Shown in pieces: positions 2,462 to 63,736 of a stretch of DNA of 64,000 nucleotides. The DNA lies in contig JAILCU010000043.1 of NCBI GenBank assembly GCA_024690405.1, forward strand, positions 1-64,000, given 5' to 3'. How positions within the stretch are numbered: the first letter of the stretch is position 1; the number at the start of each line of letters is the position of its first letter. The notes beneath the pieces were generated by a model. The model was not told where the DNA came from. It worked only from the letters and a program-made list of their open reading frames with translations, and searched no databases. Origin of the DNA: Bacteroidales bacterium. Its GTDB lineage: Bacteria > Bacteroidota > Bacteroidia > Bacteroidales > Bacteroidaceae. The translations under genes and the position numbers were made by a program.

Positions 2462-3151
2462 TTGATTGACTGTATGAAACAGATTCCTATCCTTGATGTG
2501 GGTGGTGTGCTCATTTCCACTTCTATCCTCACCGAATATTTCTGCTGCGATTTGGATGCCTGCGGCGGTGCCTGTTGCATTGAAGGGGATGCTGGAGCGC
2601 CGGTGACCGTCGATGAAATCGGCGAAATGGAGCATTCGCTTGATGCGGCTTGGCCGTTGATGTCGGCTCAGGCGCAAGCCGTTGTGGACCGGCAAGGTGT
2701 GGCTTATACTGATCCTGAAGGTGAACTTGTAACAAGCATTGTTGGGGGAAAAGACTGTGTCTTCACCTATTATAACTATCCTCCCACGATGATAGAAGGG
2801 CTGCCGAGAGGCTGCTGTCTTTGTGCGCTTGAGAAGGTTTTCCGGGATGGCCGTTCCCGATTTGCCAAGCCGATCTCCTGTGCGCTTTATCCCATCCGCG
2901 AGAAGCACTTCTCTGGAGGTCTTATCGGTCTCAATTATCACCGTTGGGCTATTTGCGACGCAGCGATCCGTAAGGGACGCGAGGAGAACCTGCGCCTTTA
3001 TCAGTTTTTACGTGAACCCCTCATCCGCCGTTTCGGGCAGGCCTGGTATGATGAATTATGTGAGGTGGCCCATGAACTGGAACTGCAAAGCCTCCAATCA
3101 TCAGAAGATGAATCATCTGACAACGAAATTGATGAGGCCCGTTCAATGTGA
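2462..3151 (+). CDS. DUF3109 family protein, Cys-rich
   Basis: CDLDACGGACCIEGDAGAPV and GCCLC...KPISCALYPIR motifs typical of DUF3109. Confidence 0.85.
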   Translation: MIDCMKQIPILDVGGVLISTSILTEYFCCDLDACGGACCIEGDAGAPVTVDEIGEMEHSLDAAWPLMSAQAQAVVDRQGVAYTDPEGELVTSIVGGKDCVFTYYNYPPTMIEGLPRGCCLCALEKVFRDGRSRFAKPISCALYPIREKHFSGGLIGLNYHRWAICDAAIRKGREENLRLYQFLREPLIRRFGQAWYDELCEVAHELELQSLQSSEDESSDNEIDEARSM

Positions 3152-3160
3152 GTGAGCTTC

Positions 3161-3380
3161 TATATGCGAAAGGCTGAGCGTCTATACGTAAGATGCTGAT
3201 CTTAAGGACGTAAGATGCTGATCTTATGGACGTAGGATGCTGATCTTATGGACGTAGGATGCTGAACTTATGGACGTAGGATGCTGAACGTCAAGTCGCA
3301 GGGCGTTGAACGTCAGGTCGCAGGGCGTTTAACATCAGGTCGCAGGGCGCCGAACGACGGGTCGTAAGTGGTCGCGCGAC
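3161..3380 (+). repeat. 22-bp degenerate tandem repeat, locus A (10 units)
   Basis: Consecutive 22-bp units, e.g. TGGACGTAGGATGCTGATCTTA / TGGACGTAGGATGCTGAACGTC / AGGTCGCAGGGCGTTTAACATC. Confidence 0.92.
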
Positions 3381-3785
3381 CTTATGTTGAAGACGTTTTG
3401 ATGAGAGGCAGGCAGATAGGAGAAGGCGGGCATGAAGTAAGATCATGGATGGAAGGGTGATGAGGCTCGGGTGGTTTCCTGATGTGGTGAATTACTTCAT
3501 CGGAAATAGGAAGGTTTTAACTTCTGGAAGCAAGTAAAGGATGAGCGGAATGCGCAAAAGAAAGTTTTTGCAAAATAAAGTTCCACGTTCCACGAATCCT
3601 TTGAAACCGGCTTCCACAAAGGGATTCGGGAATTCTGAAGTTCCACGCAAGTTCCACAAAGGTACACGCATAACTCTTCCCCCTATGCGGTGGAAGCAGA
3701 GTCTGAGTCAACAGATTAAATGACTCAACTCAACTTTCGCAAGCTCAGTTTCGTCAGTTTAAGGTGCGAGCAGGGCTCACGGAGC

Positions 3786-3906
3786 CTTCCAGTGGAACTT
3801 CCATGAGTCTTTCCGTGGATCTTCCATGGGTCTTTCCGTGGATCTTCCATGGGTCTTTCAGTGGATCTTTCGTGGAACTTCCGTGGAACTTCCGTGGAAC
3901 TTGAGT
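3786..3906 (+). repeat. ~11-bp degenerate tandem repeat (GTGGAACTTCC-type)
   Basis: GTGGAACTTCC / GTGGATCTTCC / ATGGGTCTTTCC units repeated; inverted relatives AAGTTCCACG at 3638-3657. Confidence 0.85.
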
Positions 3907-3923
3907 GTACCTTTAATAAGCTT

Positions 3924-3948
3924 AGAACCCGCTGTGGCAGCGGGTTCT
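3924..3948. terminator. Perfect 11-bp stem hairpin (possible terminator)
   Basis: AGAACCCGCTG-TGG-CAGCGGGTTCT; no clear U-tract on either side. Confidence 0.5.
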
Positions 3949-4045
3949 GACATTTCCGTGGAAGGTGGAACTTATTTTCGCAAAAAGTATTTTTTTGCGC
4001 GCAAGTGCTTTAGTTGAACTGTTCGCAGATAATGATTTCGGTGAT

Positions 4046-4537
4046 TCAGTCTTCGATGCTATCCCGCCATAGCTTGAAGGGATAACGTCGCATGTGTGAA
4101 TTGTAGAAGCGGCGGTCCCCGGTGACCTCCCGTCCGATGAAGTCCGGTTTCTCATACGGTTCGTCCTCGCTTTTGAGCTCCAGCTCAGCCATGACGAGAC
4201 CTTCGTTGTCGCCCTCGAACTCATCGACCTCGAAAACATGGCCGTCGTCGGCGCGCACCAGCCATCTTGTTTTGCGGATGATGCCCGGTTCACACAGAGC
4301 CATCAGATCGCCAGCATCCTCCAGCGAGATCTCGGTCTCGAACTCGTAGCGCGAGATTCCGTCGGCGTTGCTGGCTCCCTTGATGGTGAGGTAGCCGCGG
4401 TCGCCACGAATGCGCACTCTGACACTTCTGCCGCCCCCCGAGACAATATATCCTTGAGCGATAGGGGTATGATTAAAGGCGATCGCCTTGTAGGCGTCGC
4501 CCTTAACCAAGAACTTGCGTTCAATTTCCTGTGCCAT
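4046..4537 (-). CDS. CYTH domain protein (triphosphate tunnel / class IV adenylate cyclase-like)
   Basis: MAQEIERKFLVKGD (ExExK), GDRGYLTIKG, YEFETEIS, LVRADDGHVFEVDEFEGDNEGLVMAELEL. Confidence 0.9.
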   Translation of the reverse strand: MAQEIERKFLVKGDAYKAIAFNHTPIAQGYIVSGGGRSVRVRIRGDRGYLTIKGASNADGISRYEFETEISLEDAGDLMALCEPGIIRKTRWLVRADDGHVFEVDEFEGDNEGLVMAELELKSEDEPYEKPDFIGREVTGDRRFYNSHMRRYPFKLWRDSIED

Positions 4538-23688: not shown

Positions 23689-23791
23689 TGAGTTTGTGAG
23701 TTTATGAGTTTTTAAGTTTATGAGTTCTTAAGTTTATGAGTTCTTGAGTTTATGAGTTTGTGAGTTTATGAGTTTGTGAGTTTTTAAGTTG
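23689..23791 (+). repeat. Simple repeat of ~8-bp GAGTTTAT-like units upstream of lepB
   Basis: gagtttgtgagtttatgagtttttaagtttatgagttcttaagtttatgagttcttgagtttatgagtttgtg... Confidence 0.9.
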
Positions 23792-42212: not shown

Positions 42213-42350
42213 AGGCTTATGCGACTATACGTAAGAGGCTGCACGACTATACGTAAGAGGCTGTGCGACTATACATAAGAGGCTGTGCGACTATACGTAA
42301 GAGGCTGTGCGACTATACGTAAGAGGCTGCGCGACTATACGTAAGAAGCC
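42213..42350 (+). repeat. 22-bp tandem repeat, locus B (5 full units plus partials)
   Basis: TATACGTAAGAGGCTGTGCGAC units from 42226. Confidence 0.96.
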
Positions 42351-42470
42351 TATCTACAAATAGTAACCAATCCGTAGAACAGGGAAAATGGAACAATAAA
42401 ACCATCGAGAATAAATGATAAAAGGCAAAATAGCATATAACAAGATTCTTCACTCTTTCACTTAAATAAT

Positions 42471-54769: not shown

Positions 54770-54826
54770 GCCCTCATTCGTCCATGTTTTCTGCTATTGG
54801 TGTCCGGTAAAATTTTGTGTTCATAT

Positions 54827-54985: not shown

Positions 54986-55139
54986 CATACATACGAGACT
55001 GAGCGACCCGTCGCATGAGGCTGAACGACCCGTCGTGTGAGGCTGAACGACCCGTCGTGTGAGGCTGAACGACCCGTCGCATGAGGCTGTGCGACCTGAC
55101 GTATGAGGCTGTGCGACCTGACGTTGGAGATTGCGCATT
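54986..55139 (+). repeat. 22-bp tandem repeat, locus C (7 units)
   Basis: CCGTCGTGTGAGGCTGAACGAC / CCGTCGCATGAGGCTGTGCGAC / CTGACGTATGAGGCTGTGCGAC units. Confidence 0.95.
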
Positions 55140-55183
55140 TTATATCCTATACTTGTCGTGCTTCTCTTCGCTGCTAAATGTTT

Positions 55184-63676: not shown

Positions 63677-63714
63677 AATGGGGGGCCAGCCCACTAATGG
63701 GGGGCCAGCCCACT
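63677..63714 (+). repeat. Perfect 19-bp tandem duplication upstream of purE
   Basis: AATGGGGGGCCAGCCCACT x2. Confidence 0.95.
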
Positions 63715-63736
63715 AATGTTTTTCTCCTTTTCTATT

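Follow-up and report, generated by a model that had tools for sequence, protein, structure and literature searches.

Clusters of foldable intergenic palindromes close to the 3' ends of genes are known from enterobacteria as REP/BIME elements, and REP families are defined by a conserved sequence together with a RAYT (TnpA_REP) transposase. BrickBuilt, an intergenic element present in many copies in Porphyromonas gingivalis, consists of a spacer-free minisatellite of 23-nt units carried with a leader and a tail in a MITE; its terminal inverted repeat (TIR), GAGACCTTTGCA, is related to those of the IS5-family elements ISPg1 and ISPg9, and the element was reported to be P. gingivalis specific (PMC4596501). 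PINSR, from Prevotella intermedia and Prevotella nigrescens, is a high-copy intergenic noncoding repeat of 188 bp without TIRs (PMC4755523). In the open-access literature, we found no description of a class of 22-bp palindromic tandem arrays in Prevotella or Bacteroidetes, and the TIR string described below was not found in the repeat literature.

The DNA analyzed here is a stretch of 64,000 nt (contig JAILCU010000043.1, positions 1 to 64,000), referred to as a whole as the window. We tentatively read its locus A as belonging, in degenerate form, to a dispersed family of intergenic 22-bp dyad-symmetric arrays that may act as structural 3'-end hairpins, a reading that falls a little short of probable. 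Compared with REP/BIME from their general description, the arrays are likewise foldable intergenic palindromes that occur in clusters near gene 3' ends, but they have pitch and symmetry in common, not letters. PINSR is similar as a high-copy, lineage-specific, intergenic noncoding repeat in a related family and differs in its 188-bp unit and its lack of TIRs; its description mentions neither a 22-bp tandem organization nor a hairpin array. The likeness to BrickBuilt lies in a spacer-free minisatellite within a noncoding, intergenic, TIR-bearing element that has a leader and a tail and shares its TIRs with a resident IS. However, the unit is 22 bp rather than 23 nt, the TIR is the TATTGSTGTCCGGTAAA of an IS4-type DUF4372 element rather than the IS5-family GAGACCTTTGCA, and no genus-wide fixed-pitch class of unrelated arrays has been described for BrickBuilt. 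BrickBuilt is the nearest described element; because unit length, TIR, and transposon family all differ, the arrays described here are a parallel case and not a member. Repeat families are usually recognized by sequence, and a family held together by pitch and dyad symmetry escapes sequence searches. If selection holds the pitch, the arrays would provide a natural test of helical geometry constraining noncoding DNA or RNA and, for gut bacteria that resemble Prevotella, a candidate 3'-end system.

The array at locus A and its neighbors

The following features of the window surround locus A:
2462..3151, plus strand: DUF3109 protein gene, upstream of locus A (Pfam PF11307, E = 2.2e-67)
3163..3382, plus strand: locus A, ten degenerate dyad-symmetric 22-bp units (TRF, register, fold z)
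3554..3998, no strand assigned: TTCCACG module, which has inverted ends and contains TTCCGTGGATC-type repeats of 23 bp at 3787-3897 (blastn, TRF, inverted ends)
4046..4537, minus strand: CYTH-domain protein gene, convergent neighbor of locus A (Pfam PF01928, E = 8.5e-15)

In the window, TRF detected a period of 22 at 3186-3287 (4.6 copies, 96% matches) and at 3285-3364 (3.6 copies, 84% matches). Placed in a single register, locus A comprises ten contiguous units at 3163-3382 without spacers, starting 12 bp past the DUF3109 stop codon (TGA, 3149-3151). The original prediction, which was made by reading the letters of the window, had described ten consecutive 22-bp units after this stop, drifting progressively and containing inverted arms; TRF and the register bear out the units, the drift is seen from TACGTAAGATGCTGATCTTAAG on the left through GACGTAGGATGCTGAACGTCAA in the middle to GTCGCAGGGCGCCGAACGACGG on the right, and the arms are real at the level of the unit.

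The array is flanked by a convergent gene pair (i.e., DUF3109 on the plus strand and CYTH on the minus strand). Relatives of the DUF3109 protein come from rumen Prevotellaceae/Bacteroidaceae MAGs (top identity, 83%), and none of 80 relatives has a CYTH gene downstream of DUF3109. Arrays also follow DUF3109 in three relatives (L046, L062, and L097), which is no real excess, given that a rough estimate of background density predicts as many. The units of locus A are contiguous and lack the unique spacers of a CRISPR array. Nor does locus A look like an intrinsic terminator, in which a T run follows a G+C-rich hairpin; it contains no terminator-like T tract, and no terminator-like site was found in 3000-4100. 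Arrays at nine loci gave no match to Rfam 15 covariance models.

A dispersed family in the genome

Two further arrays and one TIR lie in the window:
42220..42351, plus strand: locus B, in the ychF/lgt intergenic space, with six near-identical units of 22 bp, TGCGACTATACGTAAGAGGCTG (TRF, register)
54795..54811, plus strand: left TIR TATTGGTGTCCGGTAAA of the locus C element (pattern search, own genome)
54989..55142, plus strand: locus C, about seven 22-bp units, a diverged member of the MITE-borne subfamily truncated at its right end (TRF, identity to elements)

Recurrence of the family at two distant loci had been proposed, and loci B and C are indeed real; the total, however, was understated. 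With locus A as the query, the genome from which the window derives (2.42 Mb, 150 contigs) yielded 54 matches (best non-self E = 1e-12), and this search and one further search together brought the count of separate arrays to at least 35, so the family extends well beyond three chance look-alikes. Runs at lag 22 numbered 30 in real related sequence versus 0 in locally shuffled sequence. These results support a dispersed, noncoding 22-bp minisatellite family with inverted arms.

Sorted by their flanks, the arrays of this genome fall into two groups. In the major group, a conserved leader (..GAGTGTTGGTTCTTCGGGTGGTGATTCAGCCTTTTCAAGCAGCATCAACC..) precedes four to ten units, which are usually followed by a conserved tail (TATGCTGGAAGCCACACATTTTATATCC..). 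Arrays of the minor group are mostly without a leader or tail, and often ACGACGGGTCGT or ACGACCCGTCGT forms the center of a long inverted symmetry. Where units meet, the arrays of this genome contain NCGACCCGTCGN-type palindromes.

Carriage by MITE-like elements with IS4-type TIRs

MITE-like elements with a conserved leader, a conserved tail, and the TIR TATTRSTGTCCGGTAAA house at least 14 arrays, among which locus C is a diverged member. The locus C element is 84 to 89% identical over 54999-55155 to three others (L018, L006, and L124), and units like those of locus B also occur inside a TIR-bearing element (L189). Allowing at most one mismatch, the TATTRSTGTCCGGTAAA pattern had 30 matches in the genome versus 0 for the reversed control; an exact, slightly narrower pattern was present in 19 of 61 genomes of the genus (own genome counted), with controls at 0. 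The copy on contig C97 (733 bp) carries TATTRSTGTCCGGTAAA at both ends and contains no long ORF, and that on contig C5 (1,116 bp), also bounded by TATTRSTGTCCGGTAAA at both ends, contains a TTCCACG module as well.

A cognate transposon was found in relatives. In a congener (L235), an ORF adjoining the same TIR matches PF14294 (DUF4372; 3.7e-21) and has a weak match to DDE_Tnp_1, under the curated cutoff of that family. A complete IS of 1,408 bp from another genus of the family (L272:728-2135) bears the same TIR at both ends and is flanked by a 9-bp duplication, AAAGAGTTT. Short TIR elements in congeners (L239, L248, and L251) are likewise flanked by 9-bp target duplications (GTTGTCTAT, ATTTGTAAA, and AAAGAAAAA). 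The two complete array-bearing copies in the window's own genome show no clear 9-bp duplication and, for that reason, are probably old or rearranged. A search of the same genome with the DUF4372 model gave no match. A transposase-like ORF, of which only the first 20 codons are present, lies directly inside a TIR at the end of contig C105 (L178, 1612-1671; MGKDSNFTGQPVYNQVLKLL); from its resemblance to the start of the L235 ORF (MGKSTHFIGQPLYSQVIKLL), it is putatively the start of a DUF4372-type transposase. An array-bearing element is located at the opposite end of this contig.

The major subfamily thus has TIRs at both ends, no transposase of its own, and a cognate IS with the same TIR, and we infer that its arrays are passengers of an IS4-type (DUF4372) MITE. 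This link shows one route by which arrays can spread within a genome. Locus A itself has no TIR within the window, whose sole TIR is the one at 54795-54811, and neither a leader nor a tail was found there. It could nevertheless be a decayed copy of a MITE subtype that combines a 22-bp array with a TTCCACG module, as on contig C5, and that has lost its TIRs. The module adjoining locus A also occurs within TIR-bearing elements (contigs C5, C63, and C127), and the GGCTGAGCGTCTATACGT run of the first unit is found in a MITE-borne array (L016). We consider this origin rather unlikely, as the array abuts the DUF3109 stop, lacks all three element landmarks, and is connected to the module by sequence unlike that of C5; the module is the only part of the locus A neighborhood common to TIR-bearing elements.

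The TTCCACG module is 70 to 78% identical by blastn to its counterparts in L161, L169, and L189. It has inverted ends (GCAAAAA..AGTTTTTGCGAAAA and the reverse) and 11/23-bp TTCCRTGG repeats, recurs within or beside TIR-bearing elements (L161, L169, L179, and L189), and may represent a second nested repeat family. Another nested module, delimited by CCCTCCAACCCTCCACACCC at one end and by its reverse complement at the other, lies in the tail of some elements (L034, L031, L165, and L188), and its ends (TTTTGCACAAAAAAAGTTTT) resemble those of the TTCCACG module.

A 22-bp pitch across the genus

The genus sample consisted of an unselected stretch of at most 20 kb from each of 40 species (699 kb in total). 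The intergenic arrays in this sample comprised 22 with a period of 22, 4 with a period of 21, and 1 each with periods of 20 and 23; locally shuffled sequence contained no such arrays. Elsewhere, there were 4 period-22 intergenic arrays in 623 kb from other genera of the family, and period-22 arrays numbered 1 in 647 kb from the rest of the phylum and 7 in 498 kb of mixed Prevotellaceae contigs. Unit sequences differ between species and even within one stretch (L201 and L224), with just 8 similar pairs among 38 arrays; one cross-species link joins the locus A unit GACGTAAGATGCTGATCTTATG to a congener array (L229, E = 6e-10). The 22-bp pitch is a property of the genus, with most units unrelated in sequence. 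Because none of 25 genus arrays has the TIR core within 700 bp, the 22-bp class is independent of the MITE. Neither this genus-wide pitch with its dyad symmetry nor the MITE-like carriage with IS4-type TIRs had been part of the original prediction, the interpretation of which is partly supported overall. Tandem arrays with a period of 14 were also common (14 intergenic arrays in the 699 kb of the genus and 8 in the phylum sample) but gave no fold signal (mean z, 0.0).

Dyad symmetry and folding

For each array, we located the best dyad center and then the next best. Of 51 arrays (17 from the same genome as the window and 34 from relatives), 36 had the two centers separated by an exact multiple of 11 bp. 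Among the 34 arrays of relatives, this proportion was 79%, versus 24% in column-permuted controls, and the mean score of the best center was 10.4 versus 4.7; permuting the 22 columns preserves period, divergence, and composition. A whole-unit palindrome test against composition shuffles was significant at 0.05 in 26% of cases, and the array-level tests were used instead.

Dyad centers every 11 bp at an exact 22-bp pitch would also be expected if each unit held an operator-like dyad, two helical turns from the next and on one face of the DNA, for a cooperative nucleoid or regulatory protein. The NCGACCCGTCGN-type palindromes at unit junctions are consistent with such phased binding sites, and a nucleoid-protein array had been among the functions first suggested. 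However, the units vary between species and within single stretches (L201 and L224) in a way that one sequence-specific protein could not read, and the arrays prefer convergent spaces over promoter spaces. We regard phased binding as improbable. Judged from the letters of the units, a single sequence-specific protein is unlikely to be the reader of all arrays, because their sequences are so many and so unrelated, with differences even inside a single stretch of a single genome.

Many of the arrays can form long hairpins. RNA folding, compared with dinucleotide shuffles, gave a mean z of -3.3 for arrays with a period of 22 or 44 and 0.0 for those with a period of 14; the minor arrays of the window's own genome had a mean z of -4.9. 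In L009 and L007, the hairpin arms match at 87 to 93% over 28 to 39 bp, versus 56 to 61% between neighboring 22-bp units. For locus A, two runs with slightly different ends gave z values of -3.6 and -2.5 on the DUF3109 sense strand and of -1.6 and -0.4 on the other strand. The earlier suggestion of a 3'-UTR structure is accordingly plausible as a hairpin on the sense strand (-3.6) and weaker on the other (-1.6). Loci B and C folded no better than shuffles (z of 0.3 and -0.3, respectively), and most MITE-borne arrays folded little better than shuffles.

The main rival to a 3'-end role is that the arrays are neutral debris, that is, palindromic minisatellites without function that arose through replication slippage and template switching and in part are carried by a MITE, with the 22-bp step set by the copying machinery. 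The free divergence of the units, the carriage of some arrays by the MITE, and the missing fold signal at loci B and C and in several MITE-borne arrays all fit this account. Yet no slippage process is known to impose the same 22-bp step on unrelated sequences and to leave periods of 20 and 23 nearly absent; the arms of the L007 and L009 hairpins, moreover, match better than adjacent units do. We hold neutral origin to be a serious possibility, if not a likely one.

Placement between genes and a possible 3'-end role

With genes called by a simple longest-ORF rule, which makes the placement counts approximate, 10 of 22 genus arrays lay in convergent spaces, versus 3.95 expected from intergenic length, as did 12 of 21 arrays in the window's own genome (one array overlapped by a long ORF was omitted). 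Pooled, 22 of 43 arrays were convergent (P = 5e-6 against an assumed background of 20%). Divergent spaces in the genus sample were not depleted (6 arrays versus 5.7 expected). The convergent bias could reflect tolerance and not function: neutral debris would be tolerated where insertions harm least, between convergent genes, and convergent spaces are permissive in general.

If the arrays instead act as 3'-end hairpins, the RNA transcribed from an array would form a double-stranded stem, terminating the convergent mRNAs or protecting their 3' ends. Selection would act on the fold and on the two-turn pitch and leave the letters free, arrays would lengthen and shorten by 22-bp steps, and the MITE would carry copies of one subfamily to new sites. 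In favor of this model are the period spectrum, the dyad lattice, the fold z values, the convergent bias, and the sense-strand z of locus A; against it count the absence of a T tract at locus A, the undepleted divergent spaces, and the poor folding seen at loci B and C and in most MITE-borne arrays. That the letters mostly differ yet the 22-bp step and the mirror symmetry recur, often at convergent gene ends, suggests that shape, not sequence, is what matters in the arrays. We infer the 3'-end function, along with transcription, termination or stabilization, and selection itself. A broader proposal, which we view as doubtful, is that the arrays constitute an undescribed genus-wide class of elements set by geometry, in which exact 22-bp palindromic arrays with dyads every 11 bp and long stems would be selected for structure, for example to serve as bidirectional 3'-end signals or as signals of the RNase III type, with the sequence itself free to change.

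Several other elements were observed in the course of the analysis. In L009 (1815-1921), a Bacteroidales small SRP RNA beside a tRNA is close to the hairpin array; in L007 (2503-2711), a cobalamin riboswitch is close to the array, which a long minus-strand ORF overlaps. In the window, an 8/16-bp TGAGTTTA tandem array with about 12 copies of 8 bp occupies 23689-23783, and a perfect 19-bp duplication, AATGGGGGGCCAGCCCACT, is present at 63677-63718.
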